Assembly (NCBI RefSeq): GCF_038446665.1
Contig: NZ_CP151802.1
Location: 868,001 to 932,000, forward strand
Origin: Lysobacter sp. FW306-1B-D06B
GTDB taxonomy: Bacteria; Pseudomonadota; Gammaproteobacteria; Xanthomonadales; Xanthomonadaceae
Length of the DNA: 64,000 bases
Direction of reading: 5' to 3'
Shown: positions 10,938-17,054 of the stretch, piece by piece
Numbering within the stretch: the stretch's first letter is position 1
Layout of the letters: every line of letters starts with the position of its first letter
Program-made: the position numbers and the translations under genes
The notes under the pieces: generated by a model
Told to the model about the DNA's origin: nothing
What the model saw: only the letters and a program-made list of their open reading frames with translations
Databases searched by the model: none

Positions 10938-11927
10938 TCAGGCCAGCGCCTTGCCGATGCGGCGCGCGATCCAGCGTTCCGCGAAACCATCCAGCTTCGC
11001 GCTTTCCAGGAAGCCGCAATGCCCGCCCCAGGGCGAGATCTCCACCTGGGCGCTGTCCGGAAGTTGCAGCTTGCGGAAGCCGTCCACCGGGATCACCGGG
11101 TCGTCTTCGGCCATCAGGATGCTTGCCGGCACCTGCAGCGAGGCGAGGCGGTGGTCGGCGATGGAGTAGCCGTCGAAGTAACTCTCCAGGGTGCCGAATT
11201 CGGTGTGGCGTTCGACCATCCATTGCGTGAGCGGGCGCATGCGCAGGCCCAGCACCTGGTCGTCGAAGGCGTGCGTCTGCGGGAACAGCTCGCGCTTGCG
11301 CGCCAGCGAGCCGCGCCACTTGCGCTCGAAGTACCACAGGTACACCGGCAGCCCCTGCTCCATCGACTCCATCGTCCGTGCCGGATCCAGCACCGGGCAG
11401 ACGGCCGCGACGTGCTCCAGGCGCACGCCGGCGCTGGGCGCGCGCAGCGCCAGGCGCAGCGCGAAGTTGCCGCCGAGCGAGTAACCGGCCACCGCCATCG
11501 GCCGGTCCGGATACAGCTTCGCGACCGCCGCCGCCGCCCGCACCACTTCGTCGATGCGGTTGGAGTGGAACAGCCCCTCGTTCAGATGGTGCGTATTGCC
11601 GTGGTCGCGGAAGTTGAGGCGGAAGACTTCGAAGCCTTCGCGCAGCAGCTGCACCGCGGTGAGCCGCATGTAGCTGGAATCGACGCTGCCTTCCCAGCCG
11701 TGCAGCAGCAGCACCAGGCCGCGCGAGGGACGCTCGGGCAGGGTGGAATGCACGCCCTGCAGGCGTACGCCTTCGCCGGCGTCGACGGTGTGGAGGGTGC
11801 TGACCGCATTCAGGTCCGCGAGACTGCGCTCGCCATGTCGGCGACGCAGTGGACTGGAACCCAGCACCGATTGGACATGCGCATTGCGCAGCCAGCGGGG
11901 CGGAGAGTAGTCGGAGGCGGTCAGCAT
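10938..11927 (-). CDS. YheT-family alpha/beta hydrolase
   Basis: About 329-residue alpha/beta-fold hydrolase of the YheT/EMB8 group. The N-terminal SPPRWLRNAHVQSVLGSSPLRR is typical of this family. The nucleophile elbow is GYSLGG, the acid lies in MAEDDPVIPV, and the histidine in WGGHCGF. The oxyanion region is LLHGWEGS. Members are esterases of uncertain natural substrate, probably cytoplasmic. ATG at 11927 is preferred; an ATG four codons upstream (11939) is equally open. It follows the acyltransferase gene on the same strand, with a short gap. Confidence 0.9.
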   Translation of the reverse strand: MLTASDYSPPRWLRNAHVQSVLGSSPLRRRHGERSLADLNAVSTLHTVDAGEGVRLQGVHSTLPERPSRGLVLLLHGWEGSVDSSYMRLTAVQLLREGFEVFRLNFRDHGNTHHLNEGLFHSNRIDEVVRAAAAVAKLYPDRPMAVAGYSLGGNFALRLALRAPSAGVRLEHVAAVCPVLDPARTMESMEQGLPVYLWYFERKWRGSLARKRELFPQTHAFDDQVLGLRMRPLTQWMVERHTEFGTLESYFDGYSIADHRLASLQVPASILMAEDDPVIPVDGFRKLQLPDSAQVEISPWGGHCGFLESAKLDGFAERWIARRIGKALA

Positions 11928-11993
11928 GCCTGGGACCATAGCCGTACGGAATCGAGTGCTCGCACTAGTGCCTTACACCCAAGAACGTGAAGT

Positions 11994-12800
11994 TCAGCTC
12001 GTCATGGCCGCGATGATGCGCGAGCGCGCAGTCTCGGCGATGCGGCGACGGCCGTCGGTCTCGCCGGGCAGGATCGGCTCGAGGAAATGCACCTCGGCCA
12101 GCCGTGGCGGTTCGCCCAGCAGACGCAGGAAATTGGCCAGGAAGCTCTCGCCCGGCTGGAAGGCCACGACGTGCTGGGCATCGCCGTGCTCGCCGTAGCG
12201 CAGCGCGACCGGCTGCACCGGCACGCCGGCCTCGACGGCGGCCAGGAAAATGCGGGCGTGGAAGGGGCCGATCTCGCGTCCGCCGCGCGTGCCGCCTTCG
12301 GGGAACACGCCGACCGAGCGGCCTTCACGCAGCCGGCCCAGCATCTCGTGCAGCACGCCGCCGAGCGATTCGGTGCTGCCGCGCGCGTGGAAGATCGTCT
12401 CGCCGCGTGAGGCCAGCCAGCCCACGACCGGCCAGCTGGCGATTTCGCGCTTGGCGACGAAGCCCATCATGCGCTGGCTGTGCAGGGTCTCGATGTCGAT
12501 CCAGCTGACGTGGTTGGCGACGAACATCGCCGCGCCCGGCAGCGGCGTGCCGACGCGACGCAGGCGGAAGCCGAAGATCCACATCAGCCCGGCGGACCAG
12601 GCGCGGATGGCGCGATGCTCCAGCGGCTCATCGCCCACGCGCACGTTCTCCAGGAACGGCACGGCGGTGAGCAGCGTCAGCGGCAGGTCGACGAACACGT
12701 GCCACAGCAGCAGCGGCACGCGGACAAGGTAACGGAGCGCGCGCGCGGCGGGCGCCGTGGTCGGCGCCGTCGCGCCGGCGTGGGGAGACGGCGCATTCAT
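11994..12800 (-). CDS. PlsC-like lysophospholipid acyltransferase
   Basis: 268-residue membrane-associated acyltransferase. Motif I NHVSWIDIETL (NHxxxxD catalytic pair), motif II near GETIFHARGS and motif III FPEGGTRGG are all present; one or two hydrophobic helices near residues 25-60 anchor it. The family transfers fatty acyl groups to lysophosphatidic acid or, in some members, to ornithine lipids; which applies here is not shown by the sequence. ATG 12800 begins MNAPSPHAGA; an in-frame ATG at 12842 is possible. Divergence from canonical plsC and the genomic setting make a secondary acyltransferase plausible. Confidence 0.88.
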   Translation of the reverse strand: MNAPSPHAGATAPTTAPAARALRYLVRVPLLLWHVFVDLPLTLLTAVPFLENVRVGDEPLEHRAIRAWSAGLMWIFGFRLRRVGTPLPGAAMFVANHVSWIDIETLHSQRMMGFVAKREIASWPVVGWLASRGETIFHARGSTESLGGVLHEMLGRLREGRSVGVFPEGGTRGGREIGPFHARIFLAAVEAGVPVQPVALRYGEHGDAQHVVAFQPGESFLANFLRLLGEPPRLAEVHFLEPILPGETDGRRRIAETARSRIIAAMTS

Positions 12801-12912
12801 TGATGCACGATACCTAAGCACCGCCGCGGCGACCAGCGCCATGAGCGGGATGCGTCGATGCGTCCAGACAGGTTCCGCAATGCGCCGCGCGCATGCGCCT
12901 TCGCGACACGAC

Positions 12913-13359
12913 TCACGGGCGCGCGATCACCGCCACCGTCAGCCGCGAGATGCACACCAGCTTGCCGCGCTCGTCCTCGATGCGGATCTCCCACACCTGC
13001 GTGCGACCGCCCACGTGCAGCGGCCGCGCGGTGCCGGTGACATGGCCCTCGCGCACGCCGCGCAGGTGGTTGGCGTTGATCTCGATGCCGACGCAGGCCT
13101 CGTCCTCGCCCACGCACTGCATCGCGGCGCTGCTGCCCAGCGTTTCGGCGAGCAGCACGGAGGCGCCGCCGTGGAGCAGGCCGTAAGGCTGATGGGTGCG
13201 GTGATCGACCGGCATGGTGGCGCGGATGAAGTCGTGGCCGACTTCGGTGAACACGATGCCCAGCGGCTCCATCGCCGTGTTGCGCGACATCGCGTTGAGG
13301 GCGGCCAGATCCGGCGGAGTGCGGAACGGCGAACGGGGGGCGGTGGGGGCGTCGCTCAT
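12913..13359 (-). CDS. PaaI-type hotdog thioesterase
   Basis: 148-residue hotdog-fold acyl-CoA thioesterase. The active-site segment is HQPYGLLHGGASVLLAETLGSSAA, with the catalytic acid in LAETLGS and the HGG loop that binds the thioester. It resembles the EntH/MenI/YbdB branch acting on aromatic or hydroxybenzoyl-CoA esters, but the substrate is not fixed by sequence. Its ATG overlaps the TGA of a possible 47-codon frame upstream (ATGA). No strong ribosome binding site is seen, which leaves room for coupled translation. Confidence 0.9.
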   Translation of the reverse strand: MSDAPTAPRSPFRTPPDLAALNAMSRNTAMEPLGIVFTEVGHDFIRATMPVDHRTHQPYGLLHGGASVLLAETLGSSAAMQCVGEDEACVGIEINANHLRGVREGHVTGTARPLHVGGRTQVWEIRIEDERGKLVCISRLTVAVIARP

Positions 13360-13499
13360 GCGGCCACTTTAGCGAGGCCGGGGAATAAAAGGGGCCCGGC
13401 AGTCAGTGCGTCGTTACGGAGAGAATCCGACGCACCGGCTCCGGGCCAGGGGGAATGGGGGATGGTTTCGATGGACTGGGGTTCGATCGGTTCCTGCAT
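13356..13499 (-). CDS. possible 47-codon small ORF coupled to the thioesterase
   Basis: ATG at 13499 with AGGA seven to ten bases upstream opens a frame for a 47-residue peptide (starts MQEPIEPQSIETIPHSP, ends LFPGLAKVAA). Its TGA overlaps the thioesterase ATG as ATGA. I recognise no family. Against it: it spans the hairpin at 13384-13447 and has no paralogue here, so it may be only a leader or chance. Confidence 0.22.
   Translation of the reverse strand: MQEPIEPQSIETIPHSPWPGAGASDSLRNDALTAGPLLFPGLAKVAA
13384..13447 (-). terminator. branched hairpin after the small-protein pair
   Basis: On the minus strand GGCCCGG pairs with CCGGGCC (13441-13447 / 13393-13399) and an inner TGCGTCG pairs with CGACGCA (13407-13413 / 13428-13434), then CCCCTTTTATT. 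It lies between the small-protein genes and the thioesterase start, so it could end the small-protein transcript or act as a leader structure for the thioesterase. Confidence 0.45.
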
Positions 13500-13589
13500 G
13501 GGTCCTGCTACGGGAGACGAGGTGTTGCCGGACGAGTTGTTCTTGGCGCCGGGGGAAGCGCGGTCAGGCGCTGGGCCTGGAGGACGCCG

Positions 13590-13775
13590 TCATGCGCAGC
13601 GGAAACGCGGCTGCATCCAGTCCTGGGCGTAGTGGCGGCTGGTGGCGTAGCCGCTGCTGTTGCCGTAGCCCACGCCGAAGTCGCGTTCGCGATGGACGTG
13701 ACGCACCGGCAGCGGAATGACGACGTTCGCGCGCGGGGCGGAGGGGGAGGTCGGGATGGCACGGAAGGCGTTCAT
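13590..13775 (-). CDS. small conserved-block protein, copy 2
   Basis: 61-residue protein that I do not recognise. The N-terminal half (MNAFRAIPTSPSAPRANVV...) is Ser/Pro/Ala-rich. The C-terminal half carries the block shared with the neighbour at 13810: HRERDFGVGYG, then SSGYA, an R-x-Y, a Trp and the end PRFRCA. It has no signal peptide or membrane segment; it is basic and aromatic-rich. AGGAC nine or so bases before the ATG matches the layout of copy 1. Comparing the two copies over the 17 codons from the shared His through GYA, five differences are silent and one changes an amino acid, which supports real translation under selection. Confidence 0.65.
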   Translation of the reverse strand: MNAFRAIPTSPSAPRANVVIPLPVRHVHRERDFGVGYGNSSGYATSRHYAQDWMQPRFRCA

Positions 13776-13809
13776 GGCGGTGTCCTGGAATTCGGTACTG
13801 CGTGGTGAA

Positions 13810-13998
13810 TCAGGCAAAGCGGAAGCGCGGCGGCGCCCACTCGGTCGTGTAGCGGCGGTTGCTGGCATAGCCACTGCTGGTGCCGTAGCCGACGCCGAAA
13901 TCGCGTTCGCGGTGGTTGCGCGACGGGGCGTTCATCAGGGCCAGCGGGGAAACCGGAGCGGACTTGGCGGACGGGGCGAAAGTGGTGAGGGCGTTCAT
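13810..13998 (-). CDS. small conserved-block protein, copy 1
   Basis: 62-residue paralogue of the product at 13590-13775, 34 bp upstream of it in the same direction. Residues 29-39 are HRERDFGVGYG, followed by SSGYA (41-45), RRY, W and the end PPRFRFA. The first 28 residues are Ala/Ser/Pro-rich and barely resemble copy 2. AAGGA precedes the ATG at a suitable distance. The perfect-arm palindrome at 14036-14055 lies about 40 bases upstream and could be its operator. No modification enzyme, transporter or regulator is adjacent, so a RiPP precursor is possible but unsupported. Function unknown. Confidence 0.68.
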   Translation of the reverse strand: MNALTTFAPSAKSAPVSPLALMNAPSRNHRERDFGVGYGTSSGYASNRRYTTEWAPPRFRFA

Positions 13999-14035
13999 GG
14001 CGGGGTCCTTCGTGGGGGTGGGTTACTGCCTCGGT

Positions 14036-14055
14036 GTGTTGGTAAAGTACAACAC
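14036..14055. promoter_or_regulatory. palindrome upstream of the small-protein pair
   Basis: GTGTTGGTAAAGTACAACAC: 6-bp perfect arms GTGTTG/CAACAC, and a nested GTA-AAG-TAC. About 40 bp before the first small-protein ATG. It looks like an operator for a dimeric repressor. The rest of 14056-14300 shows no gene I can support. Confidence 0.4.
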
Positions 14056-14308
14056 CAGATCTATTCCGCCATGGGCCATAAGTCACCCCACCGAAGACCT
14101 ATCTGACGGGGCACGGCCGGAGCCGGAACTTGCTGATATAGATGGACATTTCGGCGCTACCGTTGCCATGACTGATGGCAGGGGTGCGGCCTGGGCCCAC
14201 GCGGACACGCCTCGCGGTCGCCAGCTGGGACGAGAGGGAGGGTGAAGACCGTCACATTCAGGAAGGTGACTGCGCTCGTCCGCATGGGGGGCGGAGCGGC
14301 CAGTGCGC

Positions 14309-14337
14309 AAAAACGCCCCGGGCGGCCGAGCCCGGGG
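14309..14337 (-). terminator. rho-independent terminator of the sixA-yceI-pld operon
   Basis: On the minus strand CCCCGGGC (14337-14330) pairs with GCCCGGGG (14323-14316), then CG and TTTTT (14313-14309). A classical strong terminator about 70 bases beyond the phospholipase-D-like stop codon. Confidence 0.85.
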
Positions 14338-14406
14338 GCCGGCGCGAGCACGCGAGGAAGGGGATTCCGCCCGTTGTCCGGGGGCGGCGAGCCCCTCAAT
14401 CGCCGA

Positions 14407-16452
14407 TCAGAGGATCGGCGCCAGCCCCGCGCCGAACGCGGTGAAGATCCGCGTCGTGATGCCCTTCAGGCCCGTCGACACTTCGGGGAAGTCGCCCACC
14501 GGTTGGTAGCACGCGCGGAAATCGGGATTGCTGGGCAGCAGGGGCTGCGGGCAGTCCGGCCCGGGCACGAACTCGTAGCTGGTGGCGTAGCGCATCGGCC
14601 ACAGGTCCAGCACGGGCATCGCCTCGAACATCTTGCCGATCGAATAGTTGAGCCCGGAAAACACCGGCGGCTTGTCGCGCCGCGCGATCACCCACGAGTT
14701 CGCCGGCGCGATGTCGCGATGGATGCTCGCGCGCAGTGCCTGCGCGAACGCGCGGTCCTCGATCACCACCGCGCTCTCGGTGTTGTAGTGATCGCCGCGC
14801 GGATCGAAGTTGTGCGTACCGACCACGCCGATGCGGCCGTCGATCACCATCGACTTGGCGTGCAGGCCGATGCGCACGCCCGCGCGCTGCAGCGGCACCG
14901 GCTGGTTCGCGCCACGCGAGCTGTAGCGCAGCGCGCTGTACTCGCGCGACAGGGCGCGGCGGTACTGGTCGCGCTCCAGCGCGCTGCGGCGGTCGTAACG
15001 CTCGCGCAGTTCGCGGTGGGTCTGGCTCAGGTCCTGCGGCGGCGGTTGCGACGGACTTGCCGCAGATGCCACGGTGCCGCCGCTTTCGCCCTTCAGCGCG
15101 CGGCTGGCGGAGAGGGACGCCGGGTCGGCGGCCGAATCCTCGTCGAACCCCAGGTCCGGCAGTTCCGCGCCGGTGGCGGCGATGTCGATCGGCGCATCTT
15201 CCGGGAACGGCTTGTACTCGAAGATGTTGAAGCCGAACTCGCGCAGGTAGCGGCGCTTGTACTTGTACGACAGCGCGTAGGCGATGAACGCATCCGTCGC
15301 CGCCAGGCTGTTGGTGGACACGATGATCTTCGGCCGCTCGTCGAACGGGCGCTCGTGCAGCTGGCGGAACATGTCCTGCGCGGCGTCGGAGAGAACGAGG
15401 TACGGCGTCTGCAGCACCACTTCCTCGCGCGCCGATTCGATCAGGCTGCGCAGCGAGCCCGAAGCCACCGCCTGCTGGTCGGCGTTGACGGCCTGGTGCT
15501 TCTCCGGCGTGTCGGAGATGTAGCGCACGTGGCCCACGCGGATCGCCTGCGACACCAGGCGCTGTTCGATCAACGCACTGTCGGCGGCATCGCGCAGCAT
15601 CGCCTGCGCGCGCTGCGGGCGCTCGAAATGCGCAGGCGGCAGCGCCGGCACGCCGGCGGTCAGCAGCCAGCCGCCGACGTCGTCGAGGCGTTCCACCGGC
15701 GTGCTGCGGCGGTCGTTCCAGAACAGTGCGAAGTCATCGCGCATGACGTGCGCGACGGGGCCGGCGACGAGCAGGTCGCGGTCGCGGAAGTTGTACTCGT
15801 CGTCCCAGTCGTAATAGTCGTCCTGGTAATTGCGCCCGCCGGTGATGCCGACCGCGCCGTCCACCAGCAGCAGCTTGGTGTGCATGCGCTGGTTGAGCGT
15901 GCGCCAGCAGCAGGCCGCCGCCAGCGCGTATTGCGGGTAGCTGATCTGCGCACGACCCAACACGGGGCTGTACAGCTTCAACTCGAAATTGACGTGCGCG
16001 CCGGCCAGCGCGGCCAGGGTTTCCACGTGCTTAAGCGCGGCGAGCTGGTCGATCAGCACGCGCACGCGCACGCCGCGGCGCGCGGCGGCGAGGAGTTCGT
16101 CCAGCACGAGCCGGCCGGCGTCGTCCTCGTCGAAGATGTAGGTCTGCAGGTCGATGGCGGTGGTCGCGCTGCGGATCAGGTTGACGCGCGCGAGCAGGGC
16201 GTCGGGGCCGCGGTCCAGGATCAGCGCGTAATGCACCGGCGCCTCTGGAGTGGACTGCGCGAAGGCGCGAGCGGCCAGGTCGCGCAGTGGCGAACGCTGG
16301 GCGCACGCGTCCATGCGCGTGCCATCCACCTGGGTGGAGCGCGCCTGCACCACCGTTTCCGTGGCGCGGTCACGCTGGGCGCCGGACAGCGAGGCGCAGG
16401 CGCCAAGCGCCAGCGACAGCACGGCCACGCCGATCCGCACAATCGCTCTCAC
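14407..16452 (-). CDS. phospholipase D family lipoprotein
   Basis: 681-residue predicted lipoprotein with two PLD catalytic motifs. A GTG start at 16452 gives a signal ending in the lipobox LALGAC (Cys19). The first HKD motif is HTKLLLVDGAVGITGGRN (His191), the second HAKSMVIDGRIGVVGTHNFDPRGD in the C-terminal third. Between them is a Ser/Ala/Gly-rich stretch. The layout matches cardiolipin-synthase-like or PLD-type phosphodiesterases exposed to the periplasm. The GTG overlaps the yceI stop (GTGA), so translation is probably coupled. An ATG-initiated longer frame begins at 16575 inside yceI and was rejected because it hides the lipobox. A strong terminator follows. Confidence 0.9.
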   Translation of the reverse strand: MRAIVRIGVAVLSLALGACASLSGAQRDRATETVVQARSTQVDGTRMDACAQRSPLRDLAARAFAQSTPEAPVHYALILDRGPDALLARVNLIRSATTAIDLQTYIFDEDDAGRLVLDELLAAARRGVRVRVLIDQLAALKHVETLAALAGAHVNFELKLYSPVLGRAQISYPQYALAAACCWRTLNQRMHTKLLLVDGAVGITGGRNYQDDYYDWDDEYNFRDRDLLVAGPVAHVMRDDFALFWNDRRSTPVERLDDVGGWLLTAGVPALPPAHFERPQRAQAMLRDAADSALIEQRLVSQAIRVGHVRYISDTPEKHQAVNADQQAVASGSLRSLIESAREEVVLQTPYLVLSDAAQDMFRQLHERPFDERPKIIVSTNSLAATDAFIAYALSYKYKRRYLREFGFNIFEYKPFPEDAPIDIAATGAELPDLGFDEDSAADPASLSASRALKGESGGTVASAASPSQPPPQDLSQTHRELRERYDRRSALERDQYRRALSREYSALRYSSRGANQPVPLQRAGVRIGLHAKSMVIDGRIGVVGTHNFDPRGDHYNTESAVVIEDRAFAQALRASIHRDIAPANSWVIARRDKPPVFSGLNYSIGKMFEAMPVLDLWPMRYATSYEFVPGPDCPQPLLPSNPDFRACYQPVGDFPEVSTGLKGITTRIFTAFGAGLAPIL

Positions 16453-17054
16453 GGCGTCGTCGCCTCGACCAGGCGCACCCGCAGCATGAAACGCACCCGG
16501 TCGACGAGCGCGAACTGCCAGCCGTCCAGGCCGTAGTCGTCGCGGCTGATGCTGCCGCTGGCGAGGACGTCGCAATCGGTGCCGGGACGCTCGCAGTTCG
16601 CGTCGGAGAGGTAGAACGTCTCCATGCGCGTCACGCCGTGCATCGAAAGCCGCCCGCGCATGCGCCCGCCGGTCTGGATGAGCGTGTCGGGGTGCGGGTC
16701 GGAGACGAATTCGATGTAGGGGTAGCGTTGCGCATCAAAGAAACTCGGGCCGCGCGCGAGCGCGGTGTAACGATCGGAACCGGCGACGATCACCTCGGCG
16801 GTGCGCAGCACGATGCGCACGCGGTGACGGCCGTCGGCCAGGGTGCTGACCTCACCCTCGTACTGCGGGAACACGCCCGACACGCGCTGACCCCAGCGCG
16901 TGCGCAGTTCGAAGCCGAAGCGGGTGTAGGCCGGGTCGAACGAACGCTTGCCCGTCACTTCGGCGACATCGGCCGGCCCCTGTGCCCAGGCCGGCCAGAG
17001 GGCCAGCAGGCACAGCAGCAGTAGACAGGCTATGCGCGGCGTGCGTTCCCTCAC
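16449..17054 (-). CDS. YceI family periplasmic protein
   Basis: About 201 residues with a signal peptide (RTPRIACLLLLCLLALWPAWAQ). The mature part follows the YceI lipocalin-like pattern: FDPAYTRFGFELRTRWGQRVSGVFPQYEG, then RYPYIEFVSD, RLSMHGVTR and CDVLASGSISRDDYGLD. YceI proteins bind isoprenoid or other apolar ligands in the periplasm. A GTG at 17054 overlaps the sixA TGA as GTGA, the same junction type as at its own 3' end; a GTG two codons earlier (17060) is also possible. Middle gene of a coupled three-gene operon. Confidence 0.9.
   Translation of the reverse strand: MRERTPRIACLLLLCLLALWPAWAQGPADVAEVTGKRSFDPAYTRFGFELRTRWGQRVSGVFPQYEGEVSTLADGRHRVRIVLRTAEVIVAGSDRYTALARGPSFFDAQRYPYIEFVSDPHPDTLIQTGGRMRGRLSMHGVTRMETFYLSDANCERPGTDCDVLASGSISRDDYGLDGWQFALVDRVRFMLRVRLVEATTP

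Follow-up and report, generated by a model that had tools for sequence, protein, structure and literature searches.

The window, a stretch of 64,000 nucleotides from Lysobacter sp. FW306-1B-D06B, contains two adjacent small genes on the minus strand, named here copy A and copy B. They are separated by a spacer of 34 nt, and each is preceded by an AGGA box located 7 nt from the ATG codon. The locus comprises the following features.

14407..16494, minus strand: cardiolipin-synthase-like PLD protein, upstream neighbour (PF13091, E 2.5e-30; start codon not fixed)
14316..14337, minus strand: terminator-like hairpin after the PLD gene (pattern scan, two overlapping matches versus 0.3 expected)
14006..14009, minus strand: AGGA ribosome-binding site of copy A (from sequence)
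13810..13998, minus strand: copy A, first gene of the pair, ATG start, 62 aa (ORF and translation)
13783..13786, minus strand: AGGA ribosome-binding site of copy B (from sequence)
13590..13775, minus strand: copy B, second gene of the pair, ATG start, 61 aa (ORF and translation)
12913..13359, minus strand: hotdog thioesterase, downstream neighbour (TIGR00369, 133 bits, cut-off 36.6)
11994..12842, minus strand: PlsC/OlsA-like acyltransferase, downstream neighbour (PF01553, E 3.9e-23)
10938..11939, minus strand: alpha/beta hydrolase, downstream neighbour (PF00561, E 3.4e-17)

An earlier note on this DNA had described the two reading frames of 62 and 61 codons as an unnamed family of small proteins under coding selection, with AGGA-type sites equidistant from ATG, diverged N-terminal halves, and five silent changes against one replacement over the 17 codons that run from the common His through GYA. 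The frames and the sites are as described, and the codon count is exact. The stretch counted is the most favourable part, since all 34 codons shared by A and B give 7 silent and 10 replacement codons; the pN/pS ratio of the core between the two copies is 0.42. The note had also named a comparison of genomes as a check. Between species (12 chosen genomes, 66 pairs, Nei-Gojobori), the core pN/pS is 0.25 for A and 0.18 for B, as coding selection predicts, and that of the N-terminal parts is 0.84 and 0.65, consistent with the divergence noticed before. By these ratios, only the C-terminal half of the proteins is strongly constrained, and the N-terminal halves evolve almost freely. The substitution patterns show A and B to be coding and conserved, that is, real proteins. 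The nearest named locus is that of Lysobacter sp. MMG2, whose A and B proteins are identical to those of the window.

Homologues of the PLD protein, which itself scores below the NCBIfam equivalog cut-offs, occur in 58 of 80 loci, those of the thioesterase in 60, of the acyltransferase in 61 and of the alpha/beta hydrolase in 58, and their order around the small genes is mostly kept; the flanks fetched for these counts were 6 kb or less, and the 80 loci are not independent samples. As far as these homologies indicate, the small genes sit in a conserved lipid-metabolism cluster. The hairpin after the PLD gene suggests that they are probably transcribed apart from it, and with a terminator between the PLD gene and the pair, the neighbours may be conserved for other reasons. 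The earlier note had listed conserved neighbours among its checks, and had held that the neighbours of the pair decide nothing about its role. This second statement finds no support: the lipid-metabolism cluster is kept, a putative YtrA-type operator lies at the promoter, and the conserved block matches the tail of DUF1232/YkvA proteins, as described below.

The small-protein family

With copy A as the query, 197 proteins were found at E<=1e-3 among 200 candidates, and a profile of 37 sequences gave 2780 matches among 7995 candidates scored. The family is found mainly in Lysobacteraceae. In the profile search over this bacterial family, another check named beforehand, 236 of 395 genomes have a match at E<=1e-3, spread over 42 of 54 genera, and 159 have none. 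This count takes in either form, the small gene or the tail of a long protein considered in the next section. The number of genomes with small genes is therefore below 236, as at least one genome (G039) has a tailed long protein only. At the order level 34 of 299 genomes matched at E<=1e-5, three of them outside the family, and at the class level the only match at E<=1e-6 among 369 genomes was the window's own. Of 112 stretches, 85 were confirmed and 80 kept as named loci. These come from Lysobacter, Luteimonas, Thermomonas, Vulcaniibacterium, Arenimonas and Aquimonas, and include metagenome-assembled genomes, one of them labelled Cupriavidus. The small genes are often arranged in tandem, with up to three copies at the loci read, so that the copy-number variation the note wanted looked for does occur.

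The residues ERDFG, GYG and SSGY, as well as one Tyr and one Phe, are invariant in the 37 members. The C-terminal end has the form F-x-x-x in all 188 family matches listed (the best-scoring set, and thus biased), and in 180 of 186 matches listed SSGY is followed by 18 residues to the C-terminus. The conserved block of 33 residues contains 5-6 Arg, no Lys, 6-7 aromatic and 3 acidic residues. The block or a part of it is duplicated inside one protein in P0034, L037:5624-5818 and L041:6197-6391 (for example GYGRSSGYGRSSGYG).

Homologues are thus plentiful, and the family is unnamed, as the note had it. A match was accepted at the curated cut-off, or at E<0.001 where no cut-off exists; on these terms neither A nor B belongs to a Pfam, NCBIfam or PADLOC family. 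In PHROG five families were each matched by one of the 37 members, the best at E 0.018 (threshold E<0.001). The PDB searched by sequence gave no match for the small-protein profile. A low-complexity protein of the same genome, BON-like by eye, gave a match at G000:C1:3073136-3073216 (E 0.0013), which was taken as chance. Literature listings on YtrA in Lysobacter, DUF1232/YkvA, HpaR1 and X. citri YtrA show no work about the gene pair.

The earlier guess of a peptide signal found no favour: no export signal or hydrophobic stretch is seen by eye in A or B, and no maturation gene is present among the four neighbours scanned. A RiPP precursor was rejected too, as it has a conserved leader and a variable core, whereas here the C-terminus is conserved and the N-terminus variable.

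The conserved block and the tail of DUF1232/YkvA proteins

The profile search of the fetched loci returned a second kind of match, formed by the last ~37 residues of a protein of ~204 aa. This protein has the PF06803 (DUF1232) domain in its middle, as seen in the four proteins scanned. When the tail only was used as query, and candidates were restricted to 0.55-1.75 times the length, 77 of 77 candidates were returned, all of them annotated PF06803; all 77 long matches retrieved, again a best-scoring and hence biased set, have F four residues from the end. The profile-profile alignment (hhalign) of 81 small and 41 long proteins gives a probability of 99.2 and E 3.3e-19, and runs through both C-termini. 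This alignment shows that the shared block and the C-terminal tail of the DUF1232/YkvA protein are homologous down to the final residue. The domain itself has no match in A or B (E<=5) or in any of the 37 members (E<=1).

The tailed DUF1232 gene is present in 20 of the 80 named loci. Several loci have the operator, the small gene and the tailed DUF1232 gene in a row. Five others (L056, L068, L079, L082, L086) have the tailed gene and no small gene; homologues of the PLD and acyltransferase genes are still present there, and therefore the long gene occupies the same locus. The DUF1232 copy of the window's genome is located elsewhere, and its tail has diverged. Among 20 hand-picked genomes, the full-length tailed protein was found in three of ten that have small genes (G000, G028, G101) and in none of the nine that have neither; G039 has it without a small gene. 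As seven of the ten genomes with small genes lack the full-length tailed protein, the small proteins are independent of the long one. Two adjacent DUF1232-like paralogues lacking the tail were also observed (L116 351-1118 and 1273-1941, minus strand; G000:C1 about 2236944-2238345). They end in FRVS and FRVH, and resemble the fixed FRxx end of the family.

In AlphaFold2 predictions copy A has no fold (pLDDT 59, pTM 0.16). The long protein is modelled with seven helices (pLDDT 77, pTM 0.74), and its tail has pLDDT 37-62, falling below 50 at residues 178-190. These models suggest that the block is a conserved disordered stretch, in the small and long proteins alike. Foldseek with the long-protein model gave nothing usable against the PDB (best E 1.8), and the long-protein profile matched a single designed protein among the PDB sequences (E 0.35).

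The promoter and the candidate YtrA regulon

The region upstream of copy A contains three candidate regulatory elements.

14069..14085, minus strand: second conserved promoter block, putative activator site, TGACTTATGGCCCATGG (best match in the genome)
14044..14049, minus strand: putative -10 element TACTTT, inside the operator (TAnnnT)
14033..14056, minus strand: putative YtrA operator, a GGTG-N16-CACC palindrome, GGTGTTGTACTTTACCAACACACC

An excerpt of PMC6746942, citing Zhou 2017, attributes the motif GGTG-N16-CACC to a YtrA-like regulator of X. citri. Of 75 loci, 65 have the exact form no more than 420 nt ahead of their first small gene and 71 have a relaxed form, so that ten loci lack the exact form and four even the relaxed one. 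All 892,630 fetched bases contain 91 exact sites, 26 of them elsewhere. The bare motif of eight bases is unspecific, as 26 other sites imply of the order of 120 per such genome. The extended operator pattern is rare, unlike the bare motif: for the strict pattern GGTGTTGTANNNTACCAACACACC, the operator is the sole match at <=3 mismatches in the 4.24-Mb genome.

By eye, the stretches upstream of first genes share the second block and the palindrome, and those upstream of second genes, such as copy B, have neither. At the five loci with the tailed DUF1232 gene alone, no operator was found within 1.8 kb upstream of that gene. Judging by these five loci, the operators accompany the small gene. In two Luteimonas loci, L036 and L048, the operator was not found upstream of a small gene and a tailed DUF1232 gene, and regulation seems lost there.

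A TAnnnT hexamer occupies positions 8-13 of the operator in all 71 loci aligned. A search for a sigma-70 promoter with a -35 box had no match in 13300-14420. In 49 of the 71 loci the operator is preceded, at a distance of 28-30 bases, by the sequence TGACYTNNGGCNCA; the remaining 22 have variants of it that can be recognised by eye. With both strands counted, the 892,630 fetched bases contain 52 matches to TGACYTNNGGCNCA in total. If transcription starts 7 nt after the -10 element, the centre of this second block is at about -40. A centre near -40 is the place of a class II activator. The location of the block at the place of the missing -35 box makes it, more tentatively than the operator, a candidate activator site. 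In the window's own genome the consensus pattern of the block matches the window site with one mismatch and one other site with two. At <=3 mismatches there are 26 matches versus 32 for the reversed control, and thus no gene co-regulated through the second block was found. Rfam has no match at E<=1 in 13000-14600, and therefore no known RNA element is present in this region.

The relaxed extended pattern, at <=2 mismatches, occurs at two places only in the same genome. One is the small-gene promoter, and the other (G000:C1:2623446-2623469) precedes the ytrA-ABC operon. This operon encodes a GntR protein of YtrA size (122 aa, PF00392, E 7.6e-15), beside it an ABC ATPase (PF00005, E 7.8e-21) and then, by eye, an ABC permease. 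The operon begins with a gene (L178:6509-6919, minus strand) for a protein of 136 aa with an export-like N-terminus, which has no Pfam family over the cut-off. The inner bases of the two operators differ (AACTATAACACC in the ytrA promoter versus TACCAACACACC in the small-gene promoter), and a -10-like hexamer is located at a comparable place inside both.

A YtrA orthologue was found in 42 of 44 hand-picked genomes, including 22 of the 24 among them that were chosen for having no operator match; the genomes of the two that lack it are 76 and 82% complete. As it is found in 42 of 44 genomes, its presence cannot be correlated with the loss of the operator. A site of the form GGTGTNNTACNTTACTACCACACC is present in all 12 genomes without small genes that were searched. 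In six of them the downstream DNA was read, and a gene with an export-like start follows the site; one such gene was translated and contains TLxxVQVRPSA repeats, and the other five were read by eye. Thus the second YtrA target seems to differ between genera, and the gene with the export-like start is apparently the alternative one. At the loci in question (L171 and L173-L177; also L179:6103-6564, minus strand), GGTG-N16-CACC has another inner sequence. The six promoters and the ytrA promoter have TTGNNN 16-17 nt before the -10 element, by eye, and no second block. Around position 1501, L170 and L172 have a weaker site of similar shape (GGTGTTGTAGGAAACTACCCCACC and similar sequences). The gene behind it shows, by eye, a CxxCH motif like that of c-type cytochromes, and could be one more target of YtrA in certain genera.

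According to excerpts of the respective publications, the YtrA site of B. subtilis is located before two operons, its own and ywoBCD (PMC8060467), and the ytr operon is induced by inhibitors of the lipid II cycle and promotes cell-wall synthesis, a consistent role in drug survival not being confirmed (PMC12772383). HpaR1 of X. campestris is mentioned together with YtrA in a review (PMC7831014, excerpt), and binds over the core of the gumB promoter, activating gumB (PMC4730234, excerpt). Thus members of the YtrA/HpaR1 group are not always repressors.

Possible role of the small proteins

Taken together, A and B would form a bicistronic pair; each protein consists of a fast-evolving N-terminal stretch and the conserved C-terminal block. 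Transcription would start just upstream of A, from a -10 element inside an operator of YtrA, a GntR-family regulator, which would repress the pair together with its own ABC-transporter operon. Such repression, with the -10 element inside the operator, has good support. An activator acting at the conserved block by the missing -35 box would be needed as well. Release of YtrA would then supply free copies of a disordered tail rich in arginine and aromatic residues. Less firmly than repression, it may be proposed that these copies take part in envelope or lipid homeostasis as linear interaction modules; they would bind the partner of the DUF1232 tail, be it a protein or an anionic lipid, yet act without the DUF1232 protein. 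In short, the pair probably encodes YtrA-repressed, activator-dependent microproteins that offer a disordered interaction tail in free form and are tied to envelope or lipid homeostasis.

Another possibility, which we consider rather unlikely, is direct action on the membrane: a cationic aromatic peptide would bind anionic phospholipids, e.g. cardiolipin, and alter packing at the inner face of the envelope under stress, with no protein partner. The composition of the 33-residue block would suit this role, as would the conserved position beside the cardiolipin-synthase-like PLD and acyltransferase genes and a regulator of envelope type. However, the order of residues kept position by position and the fixed C-terminus are more than a bulk membrane peptide needs, and no helix is predicted in the block.

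It is improbable that the small proteins are dominant decoys titrating the partner of the tailed DUF1232 protein. The tail homology is exact, and the row of operator, small gene and tailed DUF1232 gene at several loci would agree with such a scheme. However, a pure DUF1232 decoy is unlikely, as a full-length tailed DUF1232 protein is missing from seven of the ten genomes tested that have small genes; moreover, in the window's genome the copy lies elsewhere and its tail has diverged. We see a similarly small chance that the block, with its Tyr/Gly/Ser and Arg residues, is a low-complexity segment that binds nucleic acids or forms condensates, which corresponds to the structural or nucleic-acid-binding roles considered in the earlier note. 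Its predicted disorder agrees with this, and GYGxSSGY with Arg-rich flanks is reminiscent of the Tyr/Arg stickers known in general. However, neither the regulation nor the neighbourhood points to nucleic acids, and the near-invariant spacing of SSGY from the C-terminus is unlike that of low-complexity segments.

Least probable is that the conserved element belongs to a different regulator whose site fits GGTG-N16-CACC by coincidence, as the eight fixed bases, the 26 other chance sites and the different inner bases might suggest. Against this, one of the two extended-pattern places in the genome is the ytrA operon promoter, the -10-like hexamer is comparably placed in both sites, and in genomes that lack small genes a similar site is retained upstream of another gene.

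The preferred reading, that of YtrA-repressed tail microproteins, can be compared with several known systems. As in B. subtilis and X. citri, there would be a YtrA-type repressor with an ABC operon, and the few extended-pattern sites of the window's genome belong to this operon and an unrelated gene. The motif is that of X. citri (PMC6746942, excerpt) and the number of targets is that of B. subtilis YtrA, with ytrGABCDEF and ywoBCD (PMC8060467, excerpt); however, the B. subtilis operators have the form AGTGTA-N13-TACACT (same excerpt). Another difference is that the second target in the window's genome would be a tandem of small tail proteins with an extra promoter block. The small protein YtrG of the B. 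subtilis ytr operon is also under YtrA, as A and B would be, but it is a transmembrane protein encoded inside that operon (PMC12772383, excerpt), whereas A and B have no hydrophobic stretch by eye and are encoded at a separate locus.

The tailed subset of DUF1232/YkvA (PF06803) shares with A and B the homologous tail and its fixed end, and at five loci the long gene is found among the same neighbours; unlike it, A and B lack the DUF1232 domain. Microproteins are single-domain decoys, known mainly from plants and animals. A and B resemble them in being small proteins made of one segment of a larger one; however, this segment is a disordered tail rather than a folded domain, and interference is only hypothetical here. 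One may go further and tentatively consider, as possible but below even chances, that the output of an envelope-stress regulon consists of tandem tail-only microproteins. The tail would have separated from a DUF1232/YkvA protein, multiplied into tandem copies and come under a YtrA operator and a dedicated activator site, and the microproteins would act in trans without the parent across much of the bacterial family.

The regulation of the pair is well supported by sequence, and the molecular function proposed for A and B is inferred. The hypothetical gene pair belongs to a widespread and apparently precisely regulated family of microproteins built from the tail of an uncharacterised protein, and a repressor of known type probably controls it. 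Little is understood about the second targets of YtrA-type regulators; this family would be a widespread candidate target with a sharply defined operator and an additional conserved block in its promoter. It would also provide a bacterial case of a conserved disordered tail that exists in two forms, attached to a domain and as free tandem copies, and the small proteins may serve as a handle on the uncharacterised DUF1232/YkvA proteins and on the conserved lipid-gene locus.
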